Source: a virus. Taken from it: a DNA stretch of 33,951 nucleotides. The notes below the pieces were generated by a model. The model was not told where the DNA came from, did no database searches, and worked only from the letters and a program-made list of their open reading frames with translations. A program made the position numbers and the translations under genes. Positions within the stretch are counted from its first letter, which is position 1. The number at the start of each line of letters is the position of its first letter. Shown here in pieces: positions 2,019 through 29,440 of this stretch. The stretch spans positions 1 through 33,951 of the IMG/VR virus record IMGVR_UViG_3300042485_003195, one strand, 5' to 3'.

Positions 2019-2092
2019 TGGCCCGGGAGGAGAGAATCGAACTCCCACAGGCAGATTTGGAGGCTGCTGTACTACCACTATACTACTCCCGG
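2019..2092 (-). tRNA. tRNA-Trp(CCA)
   Basis: Acceptor CCGGGAG/CTCCCGG, discriminator G73 as expected for Trp, encoded CCA, anticodon loop CTCCAAA. One C-U mismatch at the base of the anticodon loop (31-39). Confidence 0.9.
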
Positions 2093-2100
2093 GTATACCT

Positions 2101-2358: not shown

Positions 2359-2388
2359 TACAACTCCTAATTAGTTAATGTACTTCAT

Positions 2389-2417
2389 ATTTTACATGAG
2401 GTTTGTATTTGTGTCAA
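2389..2417 (-). promoter_or_regulatory. Sigma70-type promoter
   Basis: TTGACA (2417-2412), 17-base spacer, extended TG and TAAAAT (2394-2389). It lies in the 10 bases after tRNA-Ser and drives the 85-aa membrane protein and tRNA-Trp. Confidence 0.75.
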
Positions 2418-2426
2418 CTACTATTT

Positions 2427-2516
2427 TGGCGGAAGCGGTGAGATTCGAACTCACGGAACCTTTTGGTTCGTCTGTTTTCAAGACAGGTGCAATAAACCGG
2501 ACTCTGCCACACTTCC
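2427..2516 (-). tRNA. tRNA-Ser(UGA)
   Basis: Type II tRNA with a long variable arm (GGAACC/GGTTCG type helix), anticodon loop CTTGAAA, acceptor GGAAGTG/CGCTTCC, G73 and encoded CCA. Confidence 0.95.
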
Positions 2517-2518
2517 AA

Positions 2519-2752
2519 TCATTTGGACCAAGTCATAACAAACAATGTTCGATCTTGATCCCATTTAAATGCTACACCTATATTGTAAAGAACAGCACAA
2601 TCCGCATAGGCCCAAGTTGTATATCTTGCGCCAACACATTGTTTCAACCAATCCTCTACTACAAGTAGACTGTTGACCCAATCTTGTTGATATTCATGAT
2701 TGGGCCAAGGAATGATTGCATGATAAGGGAATCGGTGCCAATCCACTAACAT
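2519..2752 (-). CDS. Hypothetical aromatic-rich protein (77 aa)
   Basis: Rich in Trp, Tyr and His (VDWHRFPYHAIIPWPNHEYQQDW...), no membrane segment. The start at 2752 lies only 11 bases after the CCA end of tRNA-Cys and has no clear ribosome-binding site. It fills the gap between two tRNAs exactly, with its stop 2 bases from tRNA-Ser. Function unknown. Confidence 0.5.
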   Translation of the reverse strand: MLVDWHRFPYHAIIPWPNHEYQQDWVNSLLVVEDWLKQCVGARYTTWAYADCAVLYNIGVAFKWDQDRTLFVMTWSK

Positions 2753-2763
2753 GCAAATATTTA

Positions 2764-2841
2764 TGGAGCACTGGGCTGGATTTGAACCAGCGAATCGAAG
2801 GTTTTGCAGACCCCGCCATTAGGCCACTCTGGTACCAGTGC
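2764..2841 (-). tRNA. tRNA-Cys(GCA)
   Basis: Acceptor GCACTGG/CCAGTGC, discriminator U73 (the Cys identity base), anticodon loop CTGCAAA, T-loop TTCAAAT, encoded CCA. Confidence 0.95.
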
Positions 2842-2844
2842 ATA

Positions 2845-3144
2845 TTAATCTTCTAATTCTTCCTCATCATCAAACTCGCCAGTGTTATGAGCATAACCTT
2901 TGAGGGTGCTTATAAATAATTCTTGGTCATTTACCACAAAAACATTATATTCACCACGACGAAACGGCTTCATTTTGGGTACCGGTCGCCGCCCGGCTGT
3001 GTCGGACTGTATAGGTTCTACTTTGACGCTATACGAATTTTCAAACACCTCAATAATTCGCCCTAAAATTATTCTATTGTTATGACAAGTAATCACTGTT
3101 GAACCTACTTCAATTGGCGTACCCAATATGTCATTTAAATTCAC
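2845..3144 (-). CDS. Hypothetical phage protein (99 aa), beta-rich N-terminus, acidic tail
   Basis: The start is a GTG at 3144 preceded by GGGAG at good spacing. The longer frame upstream runs through tRNA-Arg and is not credible. Residues 1-60 look like a small beta barrel (IEVGSTVITCHNNRIILGRIIEV...SYSVKVEPI) resembling the SH3/KOW-type proteins common in phages. The last ten residues are acidic (FDDEEELED). A promoter overlapping the end of tRNA-Arg (3169-3198) drives it with tRNA-Cys. Confidence 0.65.
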   Translation of the reverse strand: MNLNDILGTPIEVGSTVITCHNNRIILGRIIEVFENSYSVKVEPIQSDTAGRRPVPKMKPFRRGEYNVFVVNDQELFISTLKGYAHNTGEFDDEEELED

Positions 3145-3168
3145 AGTTGTCTCCCTAAATAATACAAC

Positions 3169-3198
3169 ATTATAACACAACAGTTGAATTTTAGTCAA
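3169..3198 (-). promoter_or_regulatory. Sigma70-type promoter
   Basis: TTGACT (3198-3193), 18-base spacer, TATAAT (3174-3169), only 2 bases after the CCA of tRNA-Arg(UCU). Confidence 0.7.
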
Positions 3199-3200
3199 TC

Positions 3201-3275
3201 TGGTCCGGCGTGCAGGGATCGAACCCACATTAAGGGAGTAGAAATCCCCTGTATTATCCATTATACTAACGCCAG
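3201..3275 (-). tRNA. tRNA-Arg(UCU)
   Basis: Acceptor CTGGCGT/ACGCCGG, anticodon loop TTTCTAC, A73, T-loop TTCGATC, encoded CCA. Reads AGA/AGG. Confidence 0.93.
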
Positions 3276-3283
3276 ATACAACT

Positions 3284-3361
3284 TGGTGGGCCTTGTTGGA
3301 GTCGAACCAACCGCCACCCGATTATGAGTCGGATGCTCTAACCACCATGAGCTAAAGGCCC
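3284..3361 (-). tRNA. tRNA with CAU anticodon, probably tRNA-Ile2 (lysidine-modified)
   Basis: Acceptor GGGCCTT/AAGGCCC with C4-G69 and C5-G68, the pairs known to favour the TilS lysidine synthetase, and loop CTCATAA. The overall layout resembles bacterial tRNA-Ile2. If TilS modifies C34 it reads AUA. A second elongator Met is the alternative. CCA is encoded. Confidence 0.8.
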
Positions 3362-3368
3362 AGAAACT

Positions 3369-3453
3369 TGGTGCGACTGGCCGGAATCGAACCGGCACGC
3401 CTTGCAGCGGCAGATTTTAAGTCTGCTGTGTATACCTGTTTCACCACAGTCGC
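3369..3453 (-). tRNA. tRNA-Leu(UAA)
   Basis: Type II with a long variable arm, anticodon loop CTTAAAA, acceptor GCGACTG/CAGTCGC, A73, encoded CCA. Confidence 0.95.
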
Positions 3454-3462
3454 AATATCTCT

Positions 3463-3541
3463 TGGTCCGGGAAGTGGGATTCGAACTCACGATCTCCTGC
3501 TCCCAAAGCAGGCGCTTTAAGCCAGACTAAGCTACACCCGG
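3463..3541 (-). tRNA. tRNA-Pro(UGG)
   Basis: Anticodon loop TTTGGGA. Acceptor CCGGGTG/TTCCCGG holds a U-U and a G-U pair at positions 6 and 7. A73 and CCA encoded. The T-stem has one A-C mismatch, so this is a somewhat degenerate cloverleaf. Confidence 0.88.
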
Positions 3542-3548
3542 ATAATTT

Positions 3549-3776
3549 TTAATCCTCTTGATCACTACCGTTAAAATATGCTATTATTTTACTACGAGCC
3601 TCATCTTCTGTCAAGGCCGGCACACTTACGGTTGCTAATCCGTTTTTTATTCGTATATCAAATGGCACAACACCATTAGGCATCCAATTTTCTTCGACAG
3701 GTATACTTACAGTAAATTCTTGCAAATTCATTAACCTATCAATCACTTGTTGCGTTTCATCACTAAATCGTGCCAT
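3549..3776 (-). CDS. Hypothetical protein (75 aa)
   Basis: Soluble protein with an N-terminal helix (SDETQQVIDRLMNL) and a beta-rich middle (FTVSIPV...FDIRIKNGLATVSVPAL), acidic at the end. AAGGAT precedes the ATG. It is embedded in the tRNA operon between tRNA-Thr and tRNA-Pro, so it is probably co-transcribed and released by tRNA processing. No family recognised. Confidence 0.6.
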   Translation of the reverse strand: MARFSDETQQVIDRLMNLQEFTVSIPVEENWMPNGVVPFDIRIKNGLATVSVPALTEDEARSKIIAYFNGSDQED

Positions 3777-3788
3777 ATATTATCCTTT

Positions 3789-3862
3789 TGGTGCCCCTTG
3801 ACAGAATCGAACTGCCATCAGAGGATTACAAATCCACTGTATTACCATTATACTAAAAGGGC
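3789..3862 (-). tRNA. tRNA-Thr(UGU)
   Basis: Acceptor GCCCTTT/AAGGGGC, anticodon loop TTTGTAA, A73, encoded CCA. Confidence 0.95.
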
Positions 3863-3868
3863 CTAACT

Positions 3869-3956
3869 TGGCGGAGAGTATAGGATTCGAACCTATGCGT
3901 CGGTTTCCCAACGACAGTTTAGCAAACTGCTGCCTTAACCACTCGGCCAACTCTCC
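3869..3956 (-). tRNA. tRNA-Ser(GCU)
   Basis: Type II with long variable arm, loop TTGCTAA, acceptor GGAGAGT/ACTCTCC, G73, encoded CCA. First gene of the operon that starts at the promoter 12 bases upstream. Confidence 0.95.
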
Positions 3957-3967
3957 ATTATGTTGCT

Positions 3968-3996
3968 ATTATATATGTTGGTAACGGTCCTGTCAA
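3968..3996 (-). promoter_or_regulatory. Sigma70-type promoter of the Ser-Thr-Pro-Leu-Ile2-Arg tRNA operon
   Basis: TTGACA (3996-3991), 17-base spacer, TATAAT (3973-3968). Transcription would start about 5 bases before the mature 5' end of tRNA-Ser. The spacer is one arm of an inverted repeat (see 3980-4019). Confidence 0.8.
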
Positions 3997-4019
3997 CAAT
4001 TACATTGTAGGACCGTTAC
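3980..4019 (-). repeat. Inverted repeat joining the end of the phosphoesterase gene to the tRNA promoter
   Basis: Perfect 11-base arms GGTAACGGTCC / GGACCGTTACC. One arm encodes the last residues of the upstream gene and the other forms the spacer of the tRNA promoter. It could act as a terminator-like hairpin or an operator; there is no clear T-run. Confidence 0.65.
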
Positions 4020-4602
4020 CGTTCTTAAAGCCTATTGTACCACCTTCCTCCACGATGCGTTTGATTGCATCCTCAAACAGTATAGGAGCAAAGTCTGTTT
4101 GTTCTACGCATACACAATGATAGCGCGGATCAATACGTTCTCGTACACCCCACTCCATGAACTCGGCAGTACTGCTGGCACGTTTCATTACACGGTTAGC
4201 ATGAAGGTGCCCGTGTATGTTGGTACCAAATCTACCCAGACTGTCTTCATGAATAGGAATATGACTCAGTATCATTCCGTTCATGACATGGTATGCACGT
4301 AGTTCACGAAAGTACTGTCTATATTCGTCATCACGGAAGATATCGTGGTTACCACGTATAAGCACCTTGTCACCATTAAGACGTGCCAGTGTACTCATTG
4401 CTCTACGGTTAATAACAACATCGCCCAGGTGATACACTTTGTCGTTTGGACGTACACGTTCGTTCCATGCTTTGATCATGAACTCGTCCATTTCTTCGGG
4501 ATTATCCCAAGGACGCAGTTTGGTCACCCCGTCGTTCCGCATGAAACGGCAAACGCCAGCATGACCAAAGTGAGTGTCGCTGACTAAAAATACTGCTGGC
4601 AT
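4000..4602 (-). CDS. Calcineurin-like metallophosphoesterase (200 aa)
   Basis: Carries the family's metal-binding motifs in order: SDTHFGH (residues 8-14), GDV (about 60), GNHD (about 84), a lone His (ILSHIPIH, about 115) and GHLH (about 131). These bind two metal ions and hydrolyse phosphomono- or diesters. Phages often carry such enzymes; substrates may be nucleotides, RNA ends or cyclic nucleotides, and the sequence does not say which. GGAG precedes the start. It is the first gene upstream of the tRNA-Ser operon; its last codons form a hairpin with that promoter. Confidence 0.9.
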   Translation of the reverse strand: MPAVFLVSDTHFGHAGVCRFMRNDGVTKLRPWDNPEEMDEFMIKAWNERVRPNDKVYHLGDVVINRRAMSTLARLNGDKVLIRGNHDIFRDDEYRQYFRELRAYHVMNGMILSHIPIHEDSLGRFGTNIHGHLHANRVMKRASSTAEFMEWGVRERIDPRYHCVCVEQTDFAPILFEDAIKRIVEEGGTIGFKNGNGPTM

Positions 4603-4615
4603 TTTGCTCTCCTTT

Positions 4616-4921
4616 CTATGCTATAAGCCACTCTTGTTTATCTCTATACTCGATGGATTCTGATCCATCGTACTCGTCAATTTTAAACGCTGTACCTTTG
4701 GTTATCCATCGAATCGATAATTTTTCGAGGTCTCCAAAATATTCATCAGGATATTTCAGTGCGAGATAGTGCTCAATCTTATCACGTTCGTTGGATTCAA
4801 TCCAGGCCACAATACTGGGATCAAATAGCAATTCTTCAATACCGTGCCATGAATACCAACCGGCTCCGTGCCCTGGAGAAACTATTATTGCTACCGAATC
4901 ATCACGAACAAGTTTATTCAT
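4616..4921 (-). CDS. Conserved phage protein of unknown function (101 aa)
   Basis: Begins MNKLVRDDSVAIIVSPGHGAGWYSW and contains 'KYPDEYFGDLEKLSIRWITKGTAFKIDEYDGSESIE'. I recall this pattern from many tailed phages without an assigned role. Soluble alpha/beta composition. It lies 5 bases after the preceding 51-aa gene and has no strong ribosome-binding site, so it is probably translationally coupled. Confidence 0.75.
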   Translation of the reverse strand: MNKLVRDDSVAIIVSPGHGAGWYSWHGIEELLFDPSIVAWIESNERDKIEHYLALKYPDEYFGDLEKLSIRWITKGTAFKIDEYDGSESIEYRDKQEWLIA

Positions 4922-4926
4922 TTATT

Positions 4927-5082
4927 TTACACACCGCAAGCTTCAAAAAATTTCTGGGTATCAAATCGTGGATTCATTTCTGCACAGGATGATGCCACTG
5001 CACAAGCAGCCTGCAGTCTGGCATGCGGATCCATGATAGCACGAACATATTTGGCCAACGATTCAAAATGTTTCTTGGACAT
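4927..5082 (-). CDS. Conserved small protein (51 aa), unknown
   Basis: Strong AAGGAG before the ATG. The product has an N-terminal helix, 'MDPHARLQAACAVASSCAEMNPRFDTQKFFEACGV', with four Cys and a 'NPRFD..KFFEACG' ending that I recall from small phage and proteobacterial proteins. Co-transcribed with its two neighbours. Confidence 0.7.
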   Translation of the reverse strand: MSKKHFESLAKYVRAIMDPHARLQAACAVASSCAEMNPRFDTQKFFEACGV

Positions 5083-5092
5083 ACTGGTCTCC

Positions 5093-5404
5093 TTAGGCTA
5101 ATTCAAGTTCACGAGCAGGGTAGGTGATGCTGCCATCAAACTCCAGCTGATCCCGCTCGAATTCGGTGAGGTAGTCATCGGCTACAATGTTAAAGTCAAC
5201 GATGTGCTCGCGGAAGTACGGGCTGTCTTCTTCGATCTTGTCACGCAACGCCATAACTGCCATGGTAACATCTTTACCCTTAAAATTCTTGACCACATAG
5301 TCGTTGCCACCCTTGGCTTTCCAGTATTGCGGGCACTCGCCCTTGCCGTCCCAATCGTGGGCGCCATAGTTTTCGTAAACTTGAGTAGTAATTAGCAGCT
5401 TCAT
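5093..5404 (-). CDS. Conserved phage protein (103 aa), unknown
   Basis: Begins MKLLITTQVYENYGAHDWDGKG and contains 'YWKAKGGNDYVVKNFKG', a signature I recall from several phage groups without known function. AAGGAG precedes the start, and a well-formed promoter with the repeated cassette lies 30 bases upstream. It heads the 5404-4000 transcription unit. Confidence 0.75.
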   Translation of the reverse strand: MKLLITTQVYENYGAHDWDGKGECPQYWKAKGGNDYVVKNFKGKDVTMAVMALRDKIEEDSPYFREHIVDFNIVADDYLTEFERDQLEFDGSITYPARELELA

Positions 5405-5433
5405 TTTGGCTCCTTGTTATTCACTATACATCT

Positions 5434-5462
5434 ATTATAGCAAAATGGCGAATTATGGTCTA
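5434..5462 (-). promoter_or_regulatory. Extended -10 promoter (cassette family)
   Basis: TAGACC (5462-5457), 17-base spacer, TGC-TATAAT (5439-5434). Nearly identical in spacer and -10 to the copies at 23813-23841 and 27749-27777. Upstream (5472-5518) lie GTTGC/GCAAC hairpins. Confidence 0.8.
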
Positions 5463-5471
5463 CCAAAATAT

Positions 5472-5518
5472 TTTGTTGCAAGAATAGCAACAAATGTTGC
5501 AAGAATAACAATATTGCT
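5472..5518 (-). terminator. GTTGC/GCAAC hairpin cluster, probable terminator
   Basis: Repeated ATTGC..GCAAT and GTTGC..GCAAC arms followed by a T-rich run on the minus strand, lying between tRNA-Gly(UCC) and the promoter. The same arrangement recurs at four other promoters in the window. Confidence 0.5.
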
Positions 5519-5535
5519 TAAAAGCAATAGAAATT

Positions 5536-5610
5536 TGGAGCGGGTGACAGGGATCGAACCTGCGACGAACAGCTTGGAAGGCTGACACTCTACCACTGAG
5601 TTACACCCGC
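5536..5610 (-). tRNA. tRNA-Gly(UCC)
   Basis: Acceptor GCGGGTG/CACCCGC, anticodon loop CTTCCAA, U73 (a phage or bacterial Gly feature), encoded CCA. Confidence 0.95.
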
Positions 5611-5620
5611 ATTAAAAAGT

Positions 5621-5695
5621 TGGCGGTCCCAAGGGGTAACGATCCCCTTCTTTCAGCGTGACAGGCTGATGTGCGTCCATGAACACTTTGAGACC
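5621..5695 (-). tRNA. tRNA-Asp(GUC), unusual T-loop
   Basis: Acceptor GGTCTCA/TGGGACC, G73, encoded CCA, anticodon loop CTGTCAC. The T-loop reads ATCGTTA, so position 54 is A rather than the near-universal T. The D-arm is also atypical. Confidence 0.85.
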
Positions 5696-5701
5696 TACTA
5701 C

Positions 5702-5776
5702 TGGCTCCAGAGGGTGGGATCGAACCACCGACCAAGAGATTAACAGTCTCCTGCTCTGCCGCTGAGCTACTCTGGA
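5702..5776 (-). tRNA. tRNA-Asn(GUU)
   Basis: Acceptor TCCAGAG/CTCTGGA, G73, anticodon loop CTGTTAA, encoded CCA. Confidence 0.95.
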
Positions 5777-5783
5777 ATAAACT

Positions 5784-5858
5784 TGGTGGGCGGTGAGAGG
5801 GTCGAACTCCCGACCTTGGCCTTGTAAGGGCCCTGCTCTACCACTGAGCTAACCGCCC
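5784..5858 (-). tRNA. tRNA-Val(UAC)
   Basis: Acceptor GGGCGGT/ACCGCCC, anticodon loop CTTACAA, A73, encoded CCA. Confidence 0.95.
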
Positions 5859-5860
5859 AA

Positions 5861-6145
5861 TTAAATATATCTATCTATATGTAATCCTACTGCACTTGCA
5901 CGTTGAACTAATCTTTGTTCACGAATACTTTCGCCGTAAGCATATTGTCTTAGAAATTCTGTATCCTTATTGTAGTTATAGTTTCGTAGCAACCTATGTG
6001 CTTCTTGAATAGCTAACAATTTTGCTAACTCTAACTGTTCTTGATGATCAATATCCTTGCGTTTCATGTCCATAAGAACTTGTAGTCGCTGACCAATCAT
6101 CTGGTAGTCGTTTAAGTATGCATGCGGTACACGATATATAACCAT
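5861..6145 (-). CDS. Hypothetical helical protein (94 aa)
   Basis: The start at 6145 (MVIYRVPHAYLNDYQ...) has AGGAG upstream; the longer frame runs into tRNA-Tyr. The product is mostly helical and charged (QVLMDMKRKDIDHQEQLELAKLLAIQEAHRLL). It fills the space between tRNA-Tyr and tRNA-Val, its stop 2 bases from the latter. No family recognised. Confidence 0.6.
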   Translation of the reverse strand: MVIYRVPHAYLNDYQMIGQRLQVLMDMKRKDIDHQEQLELAKLLAIQEAHRLLRNYNYNKDTEFLRQYAYGESIREQRLVQRASAVGLHIDRYI

Positions 6146-6157
6146 ACTACTCCTTAT

Positions 6158-6242
6158 TGGTGGGGATGGAAGGATTCGCACCTACTCACCCGAAAGAACT
6201 GATTTACAGTCAGCCGCCACTCTCTAACTTAGCCGCATCCCC
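6158..6242 (-). tRNA. tRNA-Tyr(GUA)
   Basis: Type II with long variable arm, anticodon loop CTGTAAA, acceptor GGGGATG/CATCCCC, A73, encoded CCA. The T-loop reads TGCGAAT. Confidence 0.93.
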
Positions 6243-6251
6243 ATTAAACAT

Positions 6252-6325
6252 TGGTGGAGGATAACAGAATCGAACTGTTACGAAGGCCTTGCAAAGGCCC
6301 CAGGCTCCCTTTACATCAATCCCCC
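6252..6325 (-). tRNA. tRNA-Ala(UGC)
   Basis: Acceptor GGGGGAT/ATCCTCC, anticodon loop TTTGCAA, A73, encoded CCA. The G3-U70 pair of Ala identity is present. Confidence 0.95.
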
Positions 6326-6327
6326 AA

Positions 6328-6576
6328 TTATTCTTTTATATCTTTAGAATCAACGCAAGTTCCGCCTTTGAATACATATATGTCGGAATCTATGCGTATT
6401 TGTTCGAAAACATGATTGTTTACACAGATATATGGATCTTTGTGATTTTCCATATAATAAAACGCTCCATATCCAATGCCCCCTAATACCATAAGTATGG
6501 GGATATATTTTAGGTACTTGACAATTTCGGGCATAGCACCCAAAATTTGTGGTAGCATACGGAGCAGTTCTTTCAT
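6328..6576 (-). CDS. Small single-pass membrane protein (82 aa)
   Basis: Start at 6576 (MKELLRMLPQ...) chosen because earlier Met codons lie inside tRNA-Glu; no clear ribosome-binding site is present. One hydrophobic segment (about residues 25-43, IPILMVLGGIGYGAFYYM) is followed by a C-terminal domain with two Cys that could form a disulfide. It ends 2 bases before tRNA-Ala. Function unknown. Confidence 0.5.
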   Translation of the reverse strand: MKELLRMLPQILGAMPEIVKYLKYIPILMVLGGIGYGAFYYMENHKDPYICVNNHVFEQIRIDSDIYVFKGGTCVDSKDIKE

Positions 6577-6589
6577 GCTTGTATTTATA

Positions 6590-6664
6590 TGGTACACCAT
6601 AGCGGAGTCGAACCGCTCTTGCAAGGATGAAAACCTTGAGTCCTAACCGATAGACGAATGGTGC
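6590..6664 (-). tRNA. tRNA-Glu(UUC)
   Basis: Anticodon loop TTTTCAT, acceptor GCACCAT/ATGGTGT with a G1-U72 wobble, A73, encoded CCA. Confidence 0.92.
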
Positions 6665-6671
6665 ATAACTT

Positions 6672-6746
6672 TGGTGCCCCCGGATGGAATCGAACCACCA
6701 TCACAAGTTTCGTAGACTCGTATCCTATCCGTTGAACGACAGAGGC
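6672..6746 (-). tRNA. tRNA-Arg(ACG)
   Basis: Acceptor GCCTCTG/CGGGGGC, anticodon loop CTACGAA, A73, encoded CCA. Needs A34-to-inosine editing by host TadA to read CGU/CGC/CGA. Confidence 0.92.
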
Positions 6747-6749
6747 AAA

Positions 6750-6885
6750 TTATATTGAAACACACTCCCAAGGGGCTGTCATTAACCCTCTTGTAACTTT
6801 GTACACCCTGTCGGGTAGCTACTCCCGTACTCTTGTACTCACCGTGAAGTTGGCACGGCAATGACAGAAATGTGCTTCAATATAA
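6750..6885 (-). ncRNA. Long-stem RNA element between structured RNA copy 2 and tRNA-Arg
   Basis: 15-base arms TTATATTGAARCACA / TGTGTTTCAATATAA (one G-U) enclose a second 8-bp helix CTGTCATT/AATGACAG (6867-6860 with 6783-6776) and a 16-base hairpin CGGG-AGTAGCTA-CCCG (6827-6812). The outer stem shares the AAACAC core with three other elements in the island. The inner hairpin has a near copy in the element at 7396-7494. No coding frame of quality. Confidence 0.55.
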
Positions 6886-6887
6886 TT

Positions 6888-7100
6888 GCTTGGGCCACGC
6901 TTTTCCACGGTCGCCCCCAAGCTGAGGTGTTGCCCTGTCCGAACACTAAAGGACTTTGCCGCGTAGTGTTCACGCTGCTCGGTTGTCTGAGGGGTTGCCT
7001 CGCTAAAGGTGCCCGAGCCACCTGGATTTTCTCGTGCACCACACGCCACTTTCAGGAAAGTGGTAACCGGAATCTTAGGGCGCCTCACATGGTCATTTAA
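6888..7100 (-). ncRNA. Putative structured RNA, copy 2
   Basis: Shares with 957-1135 the block CGGACAGGGCAACA-CTCAG (6941-6922), followed at once by a terminal hairpin (6922-6888, arms GCTTGGG/CCCAAGC), and GTGCA.GA.AAAATC (7039-7025) after a hairpin. It also holds a hairpin GAACACTA/TAGTGTTC directly before the first block. The spacing between blocks is about 47 bases longer than in copy 1. Long frames here have an odd Arg/Thr/Ser composition. The 406 bases 6747-7152 hold only this RNA and the stem element. Confidence 0.55.
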
Positions 7101-7152
7101 AAGTAGGAGCAATCTGTCTCTGAGACTTTTTCTCTCCACTTCCCTTAACACT

Positions 7153-7368
7153 TTATTCAGGCACACGATCGCCTGAAGCTGAATATTTTATGTAATAATA
7201 CATTATGGAACAAAAAGCCCACGCAGCAAAACCAAACGGAAGTATTAACAAAAACAGAAATAATACAGCCTGTTTTGTGAATGTAGTCTTTCTAACCAAC
7301 CATAAAGTTAACAAGAATGGAAAACTAAAAATGGCCAATGCAAGTAAGAAACTGAAAAAATATTCCAT
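7153..7368 (-). CDS. Small two-helix membrane protein (71 aa)
   Basis: Start at 7368 (MEYFFSFLLALAIF...) with AAGGA upstream. Two hydrophobic helices (about 3-23 and 34-54) and a short polar tail. It follows the long-stem element at 7396-7494. No family recognised. Confidence 0.6.
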   Translation of the reverse strand: MEYFFSFLLALAIFSFPFLLTLWLVRKTTFTKQAVLFLFLLILPFGFAAWAFCSIMYYYIKYSASGDRVPE

Positions 7369-7395
7369 AATTGTTGTTCCTTGTAAGTTTAACAT

Positions 7396-7494
7396 CCATA
7401 CAAAAACACTCTTGATCTCCAGTTTACTTTGCGGTAGCTAATCCGCTTTCAACCTTCTCCGATCCTGCGTCCAGTTTAGAGTGTTTTTATATGG
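7396..7494 (-). ncRNA. Long-stem element starting at the CCA of tRNA-Leu(UAG)
   Basis: 17-base arms CCATATAAAAACACTCT / AGAGTGTTTTTGTATGG with one G-U; the first three bases are the encoded CCA of the tRNA. The 65-base loop contains a hairpin GCGG-ATTAGCTA-CCGC (7446-7431) almost the same as the one in 6750-6885. It is not a classical terminator, and it separates the tRNA from the downstream membrane-protein gene. Confidence 0.6.
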
Positions 7495-7575
7495 TGCCTC
7501 GGGTCAGACTCGAACTGACACGCCTTTCAGCACTGGCTTCTAAGACCAGCGTGGCTACCATTACACCACCGAGGC
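7492..7575 (-). tRNA. tRNA-Leu(UAG)
   Basis: Type II with long variable arm, anticodon loop CTTAGAA, acceptor GCCTCGG/CCGAGGC, A73, encoded CCA that also forms the start of a long stem. Confidence 0.95.
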
Positions 7576-7646
7576 ACTTTGTTGCTTGATTGTTAATGAA
7601 CGTTTACTGCACTATTTCATTATTATACATAATTGTCTAATTCAGG

Positions 7647-7919
7647 TCAACAGCCGCACAACCAATCATCTATATCTTGTTCAGTGCAACCCAATTTGGC
7701 CGCAAGATCGCGACTGCAAGGAAAACCAAGTGTTTCACTTGCACCCGAGAAATATTGATCCACACACTGGCGATAATTGTCGTATGCATCCAACTTGCGA
7801 TTTGGCTTGTAATCAAACACATAGGTGTCAGTGCGGCCATCTGAATCTTCACCTACATAGTACGCAAAATCTGCGCCCCAATCGCGAGTTGATTGGGCTT
7901 TCATACGCTGCTGGGCCAT
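7647..7919 (-). CDS. Hypothetical phage protein (90 aa)
   Basis: The start at 7919 (MAQQRMKAQSTRDWG...) has AAGGAG upstream; an earlier Met at 7976 overlaps the promoter. The product is soluble, with 'DFAYYVGEDSDGRTDTYVFDY' in the middle and a Cys-rich end (WLCGC). It stands alone between a cassette promoter and tRNA-Leu. Function unknown. Confidence 0.65.
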   Translation of the reverse strand: MAQQRMKAQSTRDWGADFAYYVGEDSDGRTDTYVFDYKPNRKLDAYDNYRQCVDQYFSGASETLGFPCSRDLAAKLGCTEQDIDDWLCGC

Positions 7920-7947
7920 GTTGTCTCCTTTGCAAGTAACAAACCAT

Positions 7948-7976
7948 AGTATAGCAAAATGGGTCTTTTTGGTCAA
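7948..7976 (-). promoter_or_regulatory. Extended -10 promoter (cassette family)
   Basis: TTGACC (7976-7971), 17-base spacer ending TTTTGC, TATACT (7953-7948). A GCAAC/GTTGC hairpin with A/T-rich flanks (7998-8020) lies between it and tRNA-Met. Confidence 0.8.
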
Positions 7977-8025
7977 CTCTTTTATTTTTGTTATTAAAAA
8001 AGCAACAAGTTGCTATTTTGTTAAC

Positions 8026-8101
8026 TGGTAGTAGAGGTCAGACTCGAACTGACGATGGGCACCGTATGAAGGTGCTGCATTTGCCGCTATGCTACTCTAC
8101 C
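8026..8101 (-). tRNA. tRNA-Met(CAU)
   Basis: Anticodon stem GCACC/GGTGC with loop TTCATAC, acceptor GGTAGAG/CTCTACT (G1-U72), A73, encoded CCA. The non-Watson-Crick first pair hints at, but does not prove, an initiator; the GGG/CCC anticodon stem of initiators is absent. Confidence 0.85.
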
Positions 8102-8105
8102 ATGA

Positions 8106-8180
8106 TGGTACCCGAGGGTGGGAACGATCCACCGACCCCATCCTTATCAAGAATGTGCTCTACCACTGAGCTACTCGGGT
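8106..8180 (-). tRNA. tRNA-Ile(GAU), unusual T-loop
   Basis: Acceptor ACCCGAG/CTCGGGT, anticodon loop TTGATAA, A73, encoded CCA. The T-loop is ATCGTTC (A54), the same departure as in tRNA-Asp. Confidence 0.92.
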
Positions 8181-8189
8181 ATAATTTAC

Positions 8190-8264
8190 TGGCCGGTCCT
8201 GACAGATTCGAACTGCCGACAGCTGGTTTCGAAGACCAGAACTCTTCCGCTGAGCTAAGGACCG
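8190..8264 (-). tRNA. tRNA-Arg(UCG)
   Basis: Acceptor CGGTCCT/AGGACCG, anticodon loop CTTCGAA, G73, encoded CCA. Confidence 0.95.
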
Positions 8265-8266
8265 TT

Positions 8267-8342
8267 TGGTGCTGCCTCTTGGAATCGAACCAAGTTCAAC
8301 GGCTCTTCAAACCGCCGCTATGACCACATCAGCTAAAGCAGC
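8267..8342 (-). tRNA. tRNA-Phe(GAA)
   Basis: Acceptor GCTGCTT/AGGCAGC, anticodon loop TTGAAGA between GCGGT/GCCGT, A73, encoded CCA. Confidence 0.92.
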
Positions 8343-8343
8343 A

Positions 8344-8418
8344 TGGGGTATCCGACCGGGATCGAACCGGTGATACAAGATCCACAATCTTGGGTGTTGC
8401 CTCTACACTACGGACACC
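8344..8418 (-). tRNA. tRNA-His(GUG)
   Basis: Acceptor GTGTCCG/CGGATAC, C73, encoded CCA and an extra G at position -1 (8418) opposite C73, the His identity pair. Anticodon loop TTGTGGA. Confidence 0.95.
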
Positions 8419-8424
8419 ATTGTT

Positions 8425-8500
8425 TGGTAAGGGGTACAGGAGTTGAACCTGTGACACGCGGAATCAAAATCCGCTGCTCTACCAACTGAGCTAACCCCCA
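8425..8500 (-). tRNA. tRNA-Gln(UUG)
   Basis: Anticodon loop TTTTGAT, acceptor TGGGGGT/ACCCCTT with a weak U1-U72 end as in bacterial Gln tRNAs (U1-A72), A73, encoded CCA. Confidence 0.93.
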
Positions 8501-8501
8501 A

Positions 8502-8651
8502 TTAACTTGGTATTACTTTAGGAATGTAAGGAACATTCCTTGGCCCGTGACGCTGTTCAAAAAGTACACGGGCTTCTTGTAAATCCTTTGCGTATACACG
8601 GTCTTTTACATCACCCGACGGTGTACGAACTGTGGTTTCATACATTGGCAT
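8502..8651 (-). CDS. Small conserved-type phage protein (49 aa)
   Basis: Start at 8651 with AAGGAGATTGAT upstream; a Met two codons later is possible. The product MPMYETTVRTPSGDVKDRVYAKDLQEARVLFEQRHG.. resembles the small proteins of many phages that pair a beta strand with 'A.. .EA...FE.RYG'. It lies between a long-stem element and tRNA-Gln. Role unknown. Confidence 0.65.
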   Translation of the reverse strand: MPMYETTVRTPSGDVKDRVYAKDLQEARVLFEQRHGPRNVPYIPKVIPS

Positions 8652-8666
8652 ATCAATCTCCTTTAA

Positions 8667-8735
8667 CCATATAAAAACACACTGTGCAGATATTAGTAAT
8701 GGCCTCTGTGGGACAATCAATGTGTTTTTATATGG
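8667..8735 (-). ncRNA. Long-stem element starting at the CCA of tRNA-Lys
   Basis: Perfect 15-base arms CCATATAAAAACACA / TGTGTTTTTATATGG enclose a 39-base loop; the first three bases are the CCA of tRNA-Lys. Same arm sequence family and position as the element after tRNA-Leu(UAG). Confidence 0.6.
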
Positions 8736-8809
8736 TAGGTGCGGTGAGACTCGAACTCACAACTTATCGGTTAAAAGCCGATTACTCTAACCAGTTGAGT
8801 TACGCACCC
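8733..8809 (-). tRNA. tRNA-Lys(UUU)
   Basis: Anticodon loop CTTTTAA, acceptor GGGTGCG/CGCACCT, A73, encoded CCA. Confidence 0.95.
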
Positions 8810-8916
8810 ATTCTTACTCCGTACAGTTGCCACATCAATGCTGCAAGCTTGTGCTTGTTTTCATATGTCCAACCATATCTTAGTAAACCTCGTTTGTCAC
8901 TCTTGTCACTGTCCAT
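8800..8916 (-). CDS. Short protein overlapping tRNA-Lys (38 aa)
   Basis: AGGAG eight bases before the ATG at 8916, and a promoter 59 bases upstream. The product is MDSDKSDKRGLLRYGWTYEN.. with a helical 'HKLAALMWQLYGVRMGA' end. Its stop TAA lies 10 bases inside the 5' end of tRNA-Lys, so processing of the tRNA would cut the message. Function unknown. Confidence 0.5.
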   Translation of the reverse strand: MDSDKSDKRGLLRYGWTYENKHKLAALMWQLYGVRMGA

Positions 8917-8974
8917 AACAGGATCTCCTATTTAAAATTTTTATCTAACCACACCAACATTCCAATAATGAATA

Positions 8975-9004
8975 ATAATACAATCAAAGCCCCATTTTAG
9001 TCAA
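8975..9004 (-). promoter_or_regulatory. Sigma70-type promoter
   Basis: TTGACT (9004-8999), 18-base spacer, TATTAT (8980-8975), just after tRNA-Gly(GCC). Drives the 38-aa gene and tRNA-Lys onward. Confidence 0.65.
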
Positions 9005-9017
9005 CCTTTCTGTGTTA

Positions 9018-9092
9018 TGGAGCGGATAGTCAGATTCGAACTGACGACCTACACGTTGGCAACGTGTCGCACTACCACTGTGCTATACCCGC
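9018..9092 (-). tRNA. tRNA-Gly(GCC)
   Basis: Acceptor GCGGGTA/TATCCGC, anticodon loop TTGCCAA, U73, encoded CCA. Confidence 0.95.
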
Positions 9093-9098
9093 TTTGTA

Positions 9099-9193
9099 TG
9101 GTAGTAGGCCAGGGATTCGAACCCTGTCGTTCCAGCCCATCTGACCAGTCTCCAGAGCTTATAAGACTCCGCCGCATACCAATGCTGCCTACC
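9099..9193 (-). tRNA. tRNA-Ile(UAU), long-armed and atypical
   Basis: Acceptor GGTAGGC/GCCTACT (G1-U72), anticodon stem GGAGT/GCTCT with loop CTTATAA, T-arm CAGGG-TTCGAAT-CCCTG, A73 and encoded CCA. The region between anticodon stem and T-arm is about 27 bases, a type II variable arm, which is abnormal for Ile. The D-arm (GCAT-TGGT-ATGC) has a very short loop, and three extra bases separate D and anticodon stems. It might be a degenerate or relabelled Ser/Leu/Tyr-type tRNA. Confidence 0.75.
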
Positions 9194-11090: not shown

Positions 11091-11585
11091 TTAAAGAGTT
11101 GATATTCCAGGATGTGCCTTGGTGTTAAATTTAGTTTTTGTTGGCAATTTAAAACCAAATGTTTTGTCTTCTAACAATGTTTTACAGATCACATGCACAT
11201 GTGGTTCGGGCATGTCTGAACGTGCAATCAAGAAATATTTTTCATTATGCAACAAAATTGTTATAGGAAGATCTTTATACAATTCCAGTGCTACCAGTTG
11301 CTGCATATCTGTGCTTGACAACAAGGCTACTTTGATTTGGTTTGTGTACAATAGTGATGCTACTCTATCAAGATCAGGTGCTCTTGTTACTAATGCTCTA
11401 CTTGCCGGTAAATTTTGTCGCAATGCAAGTGCGATCTGTTCACCAAGAACATCTCCTTCGATGTCAACTTTGTTTGTGGCAATTTGTAGATATTTGTTTC
11501 TAAATGCATCCCAATTGTTGTATGGGTTGTGAGCCTGCAAAGGTAATGCTACCAGTAAAAAAATAGTGGCAAGTAATTTTTTCAT
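11091..11585 (-). CDS. Exported solute-binding-like protein (164 aa)
   Basis: A clear signal peptide (MKKLLATIFLLVALPLQAHN, cleavage near residue 19). The body 'LQIATNKVDIEGDVLGEQIALALRQNLPASRALVTRAPDLDRVASLLYTNQIKVALLSSTDM' is typical of one lobe of a type 2 periplasmic binding fold (TAXI or phosphonate-binding type). At 164 residues it is about half the usual length, so it may be a single-lobe form. It follows the formamidase by 55 bases and precedes the PP-loop gene by 11. Probably binds a small ligand in the host periplasm. Confidence 0.6.
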   Translation of the reverse strand: MKKLLATIFLLVALPLQAHNPYNNWDAFRNKYLQIATNKVDIEGDVLGEQIALALRQNLPASRALVTRAPDLDRVASLLYTNQIKVALLSSTDMQQLVALELYKDLPITILLHNEKYFLIARSDMPEPHVHVICKTLLEDKTFGFKLPTKTKFNTKAHPGISTL

Positions 11586-11640: not shown

Positions 11641-12888
11641 TTATTTACTGTCAACAAAAATGTTCAACGGGCAAATAGTTGTTACTGCATAGTTTGGTGG
11701 ATCTACAACGTTACCAATTCTAAGATCGCACGCCACGCTGGTCACAACGTATGCTTGCTCTTTGGTCAAACCTTTGTTTAATTGCAGCCATTCAATCATT
11801 TGGATCAAACTGTTACGTGCAGCTTGATTCAAGTCTTGACTCAAGTTGGTCAATGGTGCAATTTTCTTGCTGTCAAGGTATGCCAGGTGCGGAGGAATCT
11901 CGCCTGCATTCTTTAATGGATACCCAATAGTTGCATGGAAAGAGTCTGGCTCTAACTGCTTGAGCTGACTGCCGCCTTCAAATTGCACTGACTTGAGGGT
12001 AGCTGCACCACCTTTTCTGATACTTGTTTCTACGGTAACAATACCATTCATTTCGATTGCAGTTCCTGAAACTTCACCATCGCCTTGTGCAAAGTGAACA
12101 TCACCTACATAAAGTCCGCAGCCATCAACATAGCATGGGAAAAGCAATGTTGTACCAGCTACCATTTGCTTGACGTCCATGTTGCCGCCGTTTTCACGCG
12201 GTGGAACCGAACGAAGGCATTTGTCTTTGTGTGATCCGTCAGGTCCACAAACTTTGGCAGGATGTGCTCCGGTTGGGAAAGGTTTGAGTGCAACACCACC
12301 GGCATCAGCAAGTTGTGCTTCACGTGCCAACCATTTATCAATTTCTGGTTCGCCGGGCATGGTGCCGATGGTTCCAGCAAAAGCTGAAATTGGAATTCTA
12401 ACTCCGGGGATTTGTTCGGATTCGGCATACAAACGATTTAATCTCCAGTTGGCAATGTAAGGATCAGGGAACATGTCGCTAAGAAAATTCATGCCTGGAA
12501 TAATAGTGGTCCATCCATGTCGTTCAGGTTCGACATCAATAATTTTTACTGCCAATACATCACCTCGTTTGGCTCCTTCGATGTAAATTGGCCCAGTCAT
12601 TGGATGAACCAGACTTAGGTCAACCGCAGTAACATCTTTGGGTCGAGCATTGATATCCAGTTCAGCATCTACTGCGTCTCTGGTATGGATTCTGATCAAT
12701 TCACCGGGTTTGGCTTTGGCTACCGGTTTGATAGCTGGATGTAAACGATTGAAACAGTTTGGATCCTGTTTACATTTGACGCCTTTTTTGGGCACCTCTA
12801 CAATGGGCTGCAGAGGTCGATCTGCAAAGGCAAGATTGGCAGCAGAGGCGATGGCCAAAGTTGCCAGAAGTTTTGAAATAAAACGCAT
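11641..12888 (-). CDS. Secreted acetamidase/formamidase family protein (415 aa)
   Basis: A Sec signal peptide (residues 1-22, ...ASAANLAFA) precedes a body with the acetamidase/formamidase hallmarks: 'PGELIRIHTRDAVDAELD', 'HPMTGPIYIEGAKRGDVLAVKI', 'MPGEPE', 'NGGNMDVKQMVAGTTLLFPCYVDGCGLYVGDVHFAQGDGEVSGTAIE'. The last is the active-site region of FmdA-type enzymes. These hydrolyse formamide or short amides to the acid and ammonia. Most known members are cytoplasmic, so an exported form is unusual. AGGAG precedes the ATG and a near-consensus promoter lies about 60 bases upstream. It is likely host-derived; a supply of ammonia and formate is one possible benefit. Confidence 0.88.
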   Translation of the reverse strand: MRFISKLLATLAIASAANLAFADRPLQPIVEVPKKGVKCKQDPNCFNRLHPAIKPVAKAKPGELIRIHTRDAVDAELDINARPKDVTAVDLSLVHPMTGPIYIEGAKRGDVLAVKIIDVEPERHGWTTIIPGMNFLSDMFPDPYIANWRLNRLYAESEQIPGVRIPISAFAGTIGTMPGEPEIDKWLAREAQLADAGGVALKPFPTGAHPAKVCGPDGSHKDKCLRSVPPRENGGNMDVKQMVAGTTLLFPCYVDGCGLYVGDVHFAQGDGEVSGTAIEMNGIVTVETSIRKGGAATLKSVQFEGGSQLKQLEPDSFHATIGYPLKNAGEIPPHLAYLDSKKIAPLTNLSQDLNQAARNSLIQMIEWLQLNKGLTKEQAYVVTSVACDLRIGNVVDPPNYAVTTICPLNIFVDSK

Positions 12889-13009: not shown

Positions 13010-13035
13010 AAAAAAGCCCTTTTGTTAAAGGGCTT
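13010..13035 (-). terminator. Rho-independent terminator of pqqA
   Basis: Minus-strand hairpin AAGCCCTTT / AAAGGGCTT (9 bp, 4-base loop) followed by a T-run, beginning 8 bases after the pqqA stop. Confidence 0.88.
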
Positions 13036-13042
13036 GTTTTGT

Positions 13043-13117
13043 TTATCGATTTGCGATATACATTGTGATTTCAAAACCAAAACGCATATCTTGTGCTGCT
13101 GGTGTGGTCCATGCCAT
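13043..13117 (-). CDS. pqqA: PqqA-like precursor peptide of pyrroloquinoline quinone (24 aa)
   Basis: A 24-residue peptide, MAWTTP at the start and RFGFEITMYIANR at the end, matching the short-form PqqA family (W-T-x-P...D-x-R-x-G-F-E-V-T-x-Y-x-A-N-R). The Glu16 and Tyr20 that the radical SAM enzyme PqqE cross-links to build PQQ are both present at the required E-x3-Y spacing. AAGGAG sits seven bases before the ATG. It is a single-gene unit with its own promoter, upstream hairpin and terminator. No pqqB-E genes are in the window, so host enzymes or genes elsewhere would be needed. It lies beside the formamidase. Confidence 0.88.
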   Translation of the reverse strand: MAWTTPAAQDMRFGFEITMYIANR

Positions 13118-13141
13118 GTTATTTCTCCTTGATTAAAATTA

Positions 13142-13160
13142 ACATACTGCATTAGTATGT
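13142..13160 (-). promoter_or_regulatory. Hairpin in the pqqA leader
   Basis: Perfect 7-bp inverted repeat ACATACT-AATGC-AGTATGT in the 5' leader, 25 bases before the pqqA start. Could be an operator or an RNA hairpin that tunes translation. Confidence 0.5.
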
Positions 13161-13191
13161 ATCATTATTTTACACAGTTGTGCAGTACATT

Positions 13192-13220
13192 TATATACGT
13201 ACAATCATGTTTTTTGTCTA
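13192..13220 (-). promoter_or_regulatory. Probable pqqA promoter
   Basis: TAGACA (13220-13215), 17-base spacer, TATATA (13197-13192), giving a leader of about 70 bases. Confidence 0.5.
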
Positions 13221-13230: not shown

Positions 13231-13434
13231 TTAGGCTACGTTTTCTTTTTCCTGCGCGAAATCTTTTCCCCAATTGATTCTTAACCAAATTCTTTCGTGT
13301 ATATAATACAAAGTCATAAAGAGTGCATTAATCAATAATGATCCTCCAAGTCCGGTCCAATAGGCTAATACCAAAATACATATTATTCGCCATATAATAG
13401 TTTTCACTACGCTTCGAGTTTTTGTTTCTGTCAT
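13231..13434 (-). CDS. DUF2061 family membrane protein (67 aa)
   Basis: MTETKTRSVVKTIIWRII.. then two hydrophobic helices and '..YYIHERIWLRINWGKD' match the DUF2061 pattern (K-x-R-S-x-x-K-x-x-x-W-R...YY-x-HER-x-W-x-x-x-x-WG). Family members are small inner-membrane proteins of unknown function found in bacteria and marine phages. GGACAC precedes the ATG. It is transcribed toward pqqA. Confidence 0.85.
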   Translation of the reverse strand: MTETKTRSVVKTIIWRIICILVLAYWTGLGGSLLINALFMTLYYIHERIWLRINWGKDFAQEKENVA

Positions 13435-13536: not shown

Positions 13537-14049
13537 TTAACTATTAAGTACCTTGGCCACCGACGTTATTACAGCAGCAATTCGACCAATGTCTCTCAAT
13601 TGTTCCACAGTATAACCCATTTTCTTCAAATTGTCATAATGTGATTTGACACAAAAATGACATTTACCAACAATACTTGCTGCAAGGCTGTATGCTTCAA
13701 ATCGTTCTTTGGTTGTACCACCATGAGTACTTATGGCATTCATACGTAGTTGTGCTGGCAATCCCTTTAAGTTAGGATCATCTGCCATTTCTATATACGG
13801 ATACCAAACATTATTCATGCCCATCAAGCTTGCTGCTGTCAGTGCTGCATCACGTTCTTTAGTATCTTGAATATTGTTTTGAATAAATGATACCAACTTG
13901 CCATTACCAGTAGCCATAGCGGCTGCTAAAGCGATGCAATTAGCTTCAGTAAAATCAAGTGTAGACCTATTGATAACATTATCAAGATTAAGTTTTGTGT
14001 CCTTAGCATATTCTGGCAATCCTTCTTTAATTTGTTCAACCCAACTCAT
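13537..14049 (-). CDS. AhpD-like alkylhydroperoxidase / carboxymuconolactone decarboxylase fold protein (170 aa)
   Basis: All-helical protein with the redox motif 'GKCHFCVKSHYDNLKKMG' (C-x2-C...H, about residues 131-148), the catalytic centre of AhpD. In AhpD the Cys pair reduces oxidised AhpC and can reduce hydroperoxides. 'CIALAAAMATGN..' lies earlier in the protein. Two genes further along is an AhpC, its usual partner, which supports a joint peroxide-detoxifying role. The start at 14049 has AAGGA-type sites upstream and overlaps the end of the 48-aa gene. Confidence 0.8.
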   Translation of the reverse strand: MSWVEQIKEGLPEYAKDTKLNLDNVINRSTLDFTEANCIALAAAMATGNGKLVSFIQNNIQDTKERDAALTAASLMGMNNVWYPYIEMADDPNLKGLPAQLRMNAISTHGGTTKERFEAYSLAASIVGKCHFCVKSHYDNLKKMGYTVEQLRDIGRIAAVITSVAKVLNS

Positions 14050-14182
14050 TTTCCTTTTCCTTTTCTTTTTGCTCTTTGTTATCTATCACCTGTTCTTCTT
14101 TCTTCTTAAAGATAGCGTCCCAATTTGAATCAAAAGTCTTTTGATCAACACTATACGGTCGAGGATTTGATCCTTTACTCAT
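14036..14182 (-). CDS. Conserved small phage protein 'SKGSNPRPYSVD' family (48 aa)
   Basis: Begins MSKGSNPRPYSVDQKTFDSNWDAIFKKK, a motif I recall from a very widespread small phage protein of unknown function, then an Glu/Lys-rich tail. Start overlaps the stop of the SGNH gene and its own end overlaps the AhpD gene by 14 bases, so the three are coupled. Confidence 0.75.
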   Translation of the reverse strand: MSKGSNPRPYSVDQKTFDSNWDAIFKKKEEQVIDNKEQKEKEKENELG

Positions 14183-14583
14183 CTTGTTTGATCCGCTAAT
14201 ATTTTATAACCCTTGTAGGTAGGATGCACGCCATCTCTACTTATGTTAGTTTCGGGTCTTGGAATCACGGTATCACCAAATTCTGATGCCACTTGCCGAA
14301 CTGCTTCAACTTGTTTTGGTTTTAGATATTGACTGGGTAACAACCAAAACACTCTATCAGCTTGGGCATTGGTGCGTAATGATCTTACCTGTCCTTCGGT
14401 GTTGATACCGAGGTCATTTGCACCCAAACTGATAATCAGTGTCCGGGTTGGCTTCAGCTTGTGCAAATGCTTTTTGTTCCAGTCGCTGGAGTTAATACCG
14501 CTTTTCGCAATGGCTTGACACTCAGGACGAACTTGACTAACGCCAACAGCAATACTATCTCCTACAATTAAACATTCAAGCAT
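14179..14583 (-). CDS. SGNH/GDSL-like hydrolase (134 aa)
   Basis: Carries block I 'VGDSIAVG' (residues 7-14), a 'LGANDLG' block (about 54-60) and the C-terminal 'SRDGVHPTYKGY' block with the Asp-His pair (about 114-125). These make the Ser-Asp-His catalytic set of SGNH esterases and acetylhydrolases. At 134 residues it is a minimal form. No signal peptide is present, so it acts inside the cell or in the virion. Possible targets are acetylated sugars or a cell-wall glycan. GGAG precedes the start. Confidence 0.82.
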   Translation of the reverse strand: MLECLIVGDSIAVGVSQVRPECQAIAKSGINSSDWNKKHLHKLKPTRTLIISLGANDLGINTEGQVRSLRTNAQADRVFWLLPSQYLKPKQVEAVRQVASEFGDTVIPRPETNISRDGVHPTYKGYKILADQTR

Positions 14584-14596
14584 TTGCTATCTCCTA

Positions 14597-15130
14597 TTAA
14601 AGTGTTTCGCCACCGACTGTGCGGTTGCAAGCGCAAAGCTCGCCAGTCTGTAACGCATCTAATACACGAAGTGTTTCTTCTGGGCTACGACCAACATTCA
14701 AGTTGTTGACAGTAACATGCTGGATAACGTTGTCTGGATCAACAATGAATGTTGCGCGAAGTGCAGCACCTGCGGGTGCGTAGAATACTCCCAGTTGATT
14801 GATTAGGCTACGTTCGTCACGTGCGGTATCAGCAAACTGAACATGTTTAATTTTCTTAAGGTCTTCGTGCGCTGCCTGCCATGCCAGTTTACAGAACTCG
14901 TTGTCTGTACTACCTGTGAGTAGAACAGCATCACGATCAGCAAAATCACCGTGTAGTTTATCATAAGCTACAATTTCTGTCGGGCATACAAATGTAAAAT
15001 CTTTTGGATAGTAAACGATTACTTTCCACTTACCTGCAAATGCTTGTTCTGTAATTGCAAAGAATTGATCACTTCCTGGGTTTACACCAGTTACGGTGAA
15101 CGATTCAATTTTGTCTCCTACTGTTTTCAT
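14597..15130 (-). CDS. ahpC: Peroxiredoxin AhpC (2-Cys), 177 aa
   Basis: Contains the peroxidatic centre 'DFTFVCPTEI' (Cys about residue 48) and the resolving Cys in 'TGELCACNRTVGG' near the C-terminus. The ending resembles AhpC of beta- and other proteobacteria with AhpD as reductant. It reduces H2O2 and alkyl hydroperoxides. Start at 15130 (MKTVGDKIESF...) has AAGGAG upstream; a longer frame begins inside the promoter region. A promoter lies 36 bases upstream. Likely acquired from a host. Confidence 0.95.
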   Translation of the reverse strand: MKTVGDKIESFTVTGVNPGSDQFFAITEQAFAGKWKVIVYYPKDFTFVCPTEIVAYDKLHGDFADRDAVLLTGSTDNEFCKLAWQAAHEDLKKIKHVQFADTARDERSLINQLGVFYAPAGAALRATFIVDPDNVIQHVTVNNLNVGRSPEETLRVLDALQTGELCACNRTVGGETL

Positions 15131-15165
15131 TGATTTCTCCTTATAAAAATGCTGCATTGCATTAT

Positions 15166-15195
15166 ATTATATATCCAGTAAATACCTATTGTCAA
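15166..15195 (-). promoter_or_regulatory. Sigma70-type promoter of ahpC
   Basis: TTGACA (15195-15190), 18-base spacer, TATAAT (15171-15166). Confidence 0.7.
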
Positions 15196-20733: not shown

Positions 20734-20775
20734 TTACGCTGCGAGAGCGAAGACCTCGTCGTTAGCTGCGTTTGC
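20734..20775 (-). other. tmRNA peptide-tag reading frame
   Basis: Resume codon GCA, then ANAANDEVFALAA and TAA. The ...ALAA end is the usual ClpXP/ClpAP degron. The preceding ATAACT resembles the alignment element before known resume codons. Confidence 0.9.
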
Positions 20776-20861
20776 AGTTATAGTTTTGCTTCTTTTACGG
20801 AGATCGCCTACCGTGTAGATCCTTTGAATACTTGCTCGTCAATCGATACTATTTCCGGCCC

Positions 20862-20993
20862 ATCAAAAAGCATTTTCAAGGTGTCCCTCTCCGATACAAC
20901 GAGGAATCGCTAACCTCGTCTGCCTATTCCACTCTTATCAGCTTTCGCATACTTACCGTGGTGGCTCGTTATATCATCGGGCAAAATGCTTTT
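20862..20993 (-). other. Intervening segment of the permuted tmRNA
   Basis: Spacer expected to be cut out, leaving the two tmRNA pieces. It holds the long closing stem with arms AAAAAGCATTTT, and an internal hairpin ACGAGG/CCTCGT with loop TTAGCGATT. Confidence 0.75.
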
Positions 20994-21071
20994 TGGTGGA
21001 CCGGCCGGGTACCGCCCCCGGGTCTTGTCCGATCTTTCTTCTTAGGCATTGTACTACAATTCTAATCTATG

Positions 21072-29432: not shown

Positions 29433-29440
29433 AAATTTAT

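Follow-up and report, generated by a model that had tools for sequence, protein, structure and literature searches.

A phage-borne pqqA was reported in 2020 from the Lake Baikal virus population VP_266, which also carries a virus-encoded methanol dehydrogenase (PMC7678222). The predicted host there belongs to the Methylophilaceae, and PQQ is proposed to be raised for methanol dehydrogenase. In its accessible passages the account concerns a single population and gives no data on a leader, on spread, on selection or from isolates; in these respects and in the viral dehydrogenase it differs from the set described below, with which it shares the phage-borne gene. Viruses from reservoir sediment have pqqA, pqqE and pqqD, and pqqA likewise appears among their viral metabolic genes, where, unlike here, it was read as phosphate solubilisation without analysis of the gene (PMC13188868, 2026). 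The preliminary description of our locus had stated that no described phage-borne pqqA was known. These reports overturn that statement; the gene itself has been known since 2020 (PMC7678222), whereas its generality, specificity and uniform build appear to be new. Orphan pqqA genes on Methylophilaceae chromosomes are alike in being stand-alone units with a terminator, in occurring several per pqqBCDE (3-12 pqqA versus one pqqBCDE) and in encoding a near-identical peptide (PMC4109929), and five pqqA were found in a PQQ-producing methylotroph (PMC9851590). They differ in their leaders, in which a hairpin of the phage type is not clearly enriched. A further parallel is cyanophage psbA, by which the phage brings the fast-turning D1 of a host energy pathway. 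In both cases a fast-consumed component of such a pathway is supplied by the phage, but D1 is a damaged protein that is replaced, whereas PqqA is the chemical substrate from which a cofactor is made.

The window analysed here, 33,951 bases long, spans an IMG/VR virus record in full and is a linear fragment. Its minus strand contains a 24-codon ORF with ATG and stop at 13043-13117, the plus strand giving a nonsense reading at this place. The product, MAWTTPAAQDMRFGFEITMYIANR, is, judged from its sequence, a bona fide PqqA. It matches PqqA over its full length and scores 38.8 bits against PF08042 (cut-off 21.1) and 39.1 bits against the NCBIfam model TIGR02107 (cut-off 20). When the entire record was searched in six frames, 13043-13117 was the sole PqqA match (E-value 2.6e-10). 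PqqE joins Glu16 and Tyr20 of its substrate; both are present in the window peptide with three residues between them (E-x-x-x-Y). The length of 24 aa lies within the range of about 22-29 aa for PqqA, and the viral relatives measure 23-25 aa. The preliminary description had called the product a 24-residue PqqA with these two residues, and both profiles, each above its curated cut-off, bear this out.

It had further ascribed to the gene a ribosome-binding site, a promoter, a leader hairpin and a terminator of its own. The Shine-Dalgarno sequence AGGAG is located at 13125-13129 on the minus strand, 7 nt before the ATG and at the same position in viral relatives. It is preceded by the leader element GATACATACTAATGCAGTATGT (13142-13163, minus strand), which occurs once in the window and forms a 7-bp hairpin at 13142-13160 (ACATACT-AATGC-AGTATGT, loop AATGC) that is conserved between phages. 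The folding energy of this hairpin alone is unremarkable (z -0.7). Downstream of the ORF, an intrinsic terminator at 13014-13035 (minus strand) consists of a 9-bp stem, AAGCCCTTT-AACA-AAAGGGCTT, followed by TTTTTA, with a folding z of -3.6. Ribosome-binding site, hairpin and terminator were thus recovered, and the promoter in part: a -10-like box, TAAAAT, lies at 13167-13172 (minus strand), 3 bases before the leader element, with no -35 recognised, and a sigma-70 scan of the window found no complete promoter near pqqA on the minus strand. A promoter belonging to pqqA itself is plausible from these signals. A T4-type late promoter was considered at 13189-13195 (TATAAAT) and rejected, as the window contains 5 copies of the motif against an expected 10, which is no enrichment. 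The Rfam family freshwater-2 was likewise rejected as the identity of the leader, scoring 21.3 bits against a gathering threshold of 49.9 and being absent from 16 related loci.

The leader is specific to pqqA. When the exact 22-nt window leader was searched across IMG/VR, all 34 occurrences lay directly before pqqA (in 2 of them the ORF runs off the locus end), usually with a TATAAT-like box in front. Among the matches listed, a perfect stem of at least 6 pairs is present in 45% of 222 viral pqqA leaders versus 13% of shuffled sequences, and one of at least 7 pairs in 29% versus 4%. For stems of at least 6 pairs, bacterial pqqA leaders give 10% versus 7% shuffled, no clear enrichment, and the regions before other phage genes with a Shine-Dalgarno sequence give 14%. 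A TATAAT-like box precedes the stem in 63% of the listed viral leaders with at least 6 pairs, compared with 17% of shuffles, and some relatives have textbook promoters just before the leader (e.g., TTGACA and TATAAT in L096 and L037). The stems of the listed viral leaders comprise 53 different arm sequences. Since the arms vary while the shape is kept, the element points to an RNA hairpin near the 5' end rather than to one operator, and it may act in RNA stability or ribosome access.

Viral loci were sought with a DNA pattern for D-x-R-x-GFE(I/V)T-x-Y, for which we estimate a chance expectation near zero. The pattern occurs in at least 120 IMG/VR contigs; a complete PqqA of 23-25 aa is present in 117 of the 120 stretches listed, with a clear Shine-Dalgarno sequence in nearly all. 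Searches by tblastn with Acinetobacter queries found no PqqB, PqqC, PqqD or PqqE in the flanks of the approximately 123 viral pqqA loci listed, whereas most bacterial loci from the same search have pqqB close to pqqA. In 50 long records, including 6 complete phage genomes, neither PqqE nor a PQQ alcohol dehydrogenase exceeded the cut-off. In 22 of the long records neither PqqB nor PqqC was found, the PqqC search being weak, with silent controls. The usual pqqB-E neighbourhood is therefore missing from these viral pqqA; it is common but not defining, as Methylophilaceae have orphan copies. The orphan state noted in the preliminary description holds for complete isolate genomes and long related contigs, which lack other pqq genes, the window being a 34-kb fragment. 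A further scan for viral loci used a pattern open at the Glu and Tyr positions, and both residues were kept in all 108 new loci among the matches listed, as expected of a substrate, each with a Shine-Dalgarno sequence (108/108). Across 216 distinct DNA versions encoding 93 peptides, among the matches listed, pN/pS was 0.22 (pS 0.61, pN 0.13); many of these viral loci are related and not independent samples, and the regular expression behind this set fixed W, R, G, E, T and Y, the Glu/Tyr claim resting on the open-position scan. These substitution rates indicate that viral pqqA is under purifying selection. Two marks of an auxiliary metabolic gene were found, namely occurrence in genuine phage genomes (complete isolates) and selection.

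The gene is also present in cultured phages. INPHARED (50,697 records) was searched with four PqqA queries, those of the window, P19250A, Pseudomonas and Klebsiella. All four returned the same carriers: Melnitz (4 strains), P19250A, Venkman, MEP301, MEP401 and MEP402. Further matches were an uncultured podovirus and a pair of records that bear the label Acinetobacter phage MD-2021a. One of the latter, CAKLQF020000010.1, is a bacterial chromosome with pqqABCDE and was rejected as a phage pqqA; the other, CAKLQH020000055.1, carries a matching pqqA and was set aside as probably the same mislabelling. All cultured Methylophilales phages found in INPHARED carry pqqA, in six genotypes from several unrelated groups. 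With the mislabelled records set aside, the four queries found pqqA in no other host-assigned phage among the 50,697 records, phages of other PQQ producers included. Until MEP401 and MEP402 were added, there were no OM43 phage isolates other than Venkman, MEP301 and Melnitz, which belong to distinct groups (PMC10580990). The host of P19250A is the freshwater LD28, sister group of OM43. The gene is annotated in none of these cultured phages, and a search by term found it unmentioned in the Melnitz, MEP301 and MEP401/402 papers; in Melnitz-1 (MZ577095.1, 74848-74943) and MW202481 (MW202481.1, 2067-2195) an opposite-strand hypothetical protein is annotated over it. Common gene callers such as Prodigal have a minimum of 90 bases, and pqqA was probably overlooked in the isolates because it is shorter than this.

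On the host side, four streamlined genomes of 1.3-1.4 Mb, which belong to a sample taken from the order that includes a Limnohabitans genome, each have 3 pqqA, 1 pqqE and 1-2 PQQ dehydrogenases, with pqqA away from pqqE. In three of them PqqA has the same sequence as in P19250A, and in the other it is near-identical. The idea of gene dosage put forward in the preliminary description fits such hosts, with several pqqA per single pqqE. In hosts that already have several copies, one more may add little, unless host transcription is shut off or the phage copy is strongly expressed. The PqqA of cultured Methylophilales phages mostly ends in MYVMNK. The DMRFGFEITMYIANR ending of the window peptide has exact matches in Comamonadaceae, Limnobacter, Thauera and other Burkholderiales, not in named Methylophilaceae; for this reason, methanol oxidation as the pathway served by the window phage is only a guess.

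We think it likely that a functional phage pqqA provides additional PqqA, the substrate that host PqqB-E use up, and so sustains PQQ during infection. The gene would be expressed as a small transcription unit of its own, comprising leader hairpin, ribosome-binding site, ORF and terminator. The peptide would then pass to host PqqD/PqqE, a protease, PqqB and PqqC, being cross-linked between Glu and Tyr and converted to PQQ. With PQQ maintained or increased, electrons and carbon would continue to flow during infection from PQQ-dependent dehydrogenases, which in Methylophilales means methanol dehydrogenase. We infer this expression, processing by host enzymes, increase in PQQ and benefit to the phage. 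Making each PQQ uses up one PqqA, whereas the enzymes serve again, so the phage need bring only the consumed part, and one-for-one consumption makes peptide supply a sensible limit. A narrower form of this explanation is maintenance and not a boost, in which the phage copy only keeps PQQ at its normal level while host mRNAs and DNA are destroyed, comparable to the replacement of D1 through cyanophage psbA. The phage gene is the consumed part only, and the phage-specific 5' hairpin could stabilise its mRNA, both of which agree with replacement after host shut-off; we hold this version tentatively, as a serious candidate but doubtful.

Other roles for the peptide were weighed against this supply of substrate. 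Competition by a short, orphan substrate copy is conceivable in principle, and the phage peptide might act as a decoy that binds PqqD/PqqE, lowers PQQ and shuts down host respiration. Nothing would oblige a decoy to keep the reactive Glu and Tyr, whereas all 108 listed copies of the open-position scan retain them, and the phage peptide is near-identical to host PqqA, making this reading very unlikely. Still less likely is a precursor of another peptide, modified by phage or host, instead of PQQ: a weak radical-SAM match was seen in 4 long viral records (best 34 bits versus the PqqE cut-off of 381), but the PqqA match is full-length and no PqqE-type radical-SAM gene lies near pqqA, and none was seen in the majority of carriers or in the isolates with complete genomes. 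The least likely of all is a functionless passenger of host DNA, acquired by transduction or through contig contamination. The GenBank record labelled as an Acinetobacter phage that is plainly a bacterial chromosome speaks for this reading, whereas complete isolate genomes carry pqqA, pqqB is not adjacent, and both the pN/pS and the phage-specific leader contradict it.

Returning to the supply of a consumed substrate, we lean slightly towards a broader reading, in which methylotroph phages of unrelated lineages share a standard, almost always overlooked "consumable-only" cassette (promoter, pqqA-specific 5' hairpin, pqqA and often a terminator), nearly guild-wide, with the leader as phage-specific expression control. 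The pattern suggests that these phages replenish a host pathway solely with the ingredient it uses up. If true, PQQ supply would be a lever for phages that infect OM43, LD28 and their relatives, which are major methanol consumers in aquatic habitats. PQQ limitation during infection, through the precursor peptide, is directly testable in existing phage-host systems, and the leader with pqqA would provide a specific DNA marker for phages of PQQ-dependent hosts in metagenomes.

The window is firmly phage DNA. Apart from its status as an IMG/VR virus record, it has 28 tRNA genes for nearly all amino acids (1156-9193, minus strand, small ORFs interspersed), a permuted, two-piece tmRNA gene (20734-21058, minus strand, 116.9 bits) and an ATP-dependent DNA ligase that belongs to a phage family. 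A 364-kb viral contig, L104, has similar tRNAs and the same pqqA leader. As a separate observation, the alphaproteobacterial tmRNA model likewise fits the window tmRNA, a match also reported for Melnitz, while the related pqqA phages L022, L041, L048, L070 and L037 match the betaproteobacterial model instead.

All the genes around pqqA described here lie on the minus strand. The next gene upstream encodes a 67-aa membrane protein (13231..13434), weakly DUF2061-like but below cut-off, which recurs beside pqqA in six other loci (L094, L013, L029, L109, L205 and L228). It is followed by an AhpD-like peroxidase of the carboxymuconolactone decarboxylase family (13537..14049; Pfam/NCBIfam), a GDSL-like hydrolase (14179..14583; PF00657 at cut-off), found in 18 of the 120 pqqA-bearing viral loci among the matches listed, and an AhpC-like peroxiredoxin (14597..15157; Pfam/NCBIfam) with the promoter TTGACA-18-TATAAT at 15166-15195. 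Of 80 viral loci with AhpD among the matches listed, 20 have pqqA no more than 2.3 kb away, and in 12 of these the distance is at most 450 bases. AhpC/AhpD was rejected as a general partner of pqqA: it is often adjacent, yet the pair occurs in only 7 of the 120 pqqA loci listed, which makes the link genuine for some members of the group without being general, and many phages have the pair without pqqA. PqqC, which catalyses the last step of PQQ synthesis, makes hydrogen peroxide, and a peroxide-removing partner would therefore make sense; a tie of AhpC/AhpD to pqqA through this peroxide is speculation. In its own right, AhpC-AhpD (13537-15157) is a very common, little-noticed phage module, AhpD relatives occurring in at least 600 viral stretches, at least 598 of them confirmed.

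Downstream of pqqA, the next gene encodes an acetamidase/formamidase family protein (11641..12888, 303 bits) with a signal-peptide-like N-terminus and its own promoter-like site. It was rejected as a functional partner of pqqA, being absent from all other pqqA loci listed. One weak relative (30% identity) of this formamidase was found in 50,697 phage records, and its neighbour at 11091-11585 also looks secreted. Elsewhere in the window, four neighbouring proteins at 28168-32018 (minus strand) have similar N-terminal motifs, MRADEFVTE, MRADDFLNE, MRAVDFLGE and MRSHEFDNK, possibly a common signal.
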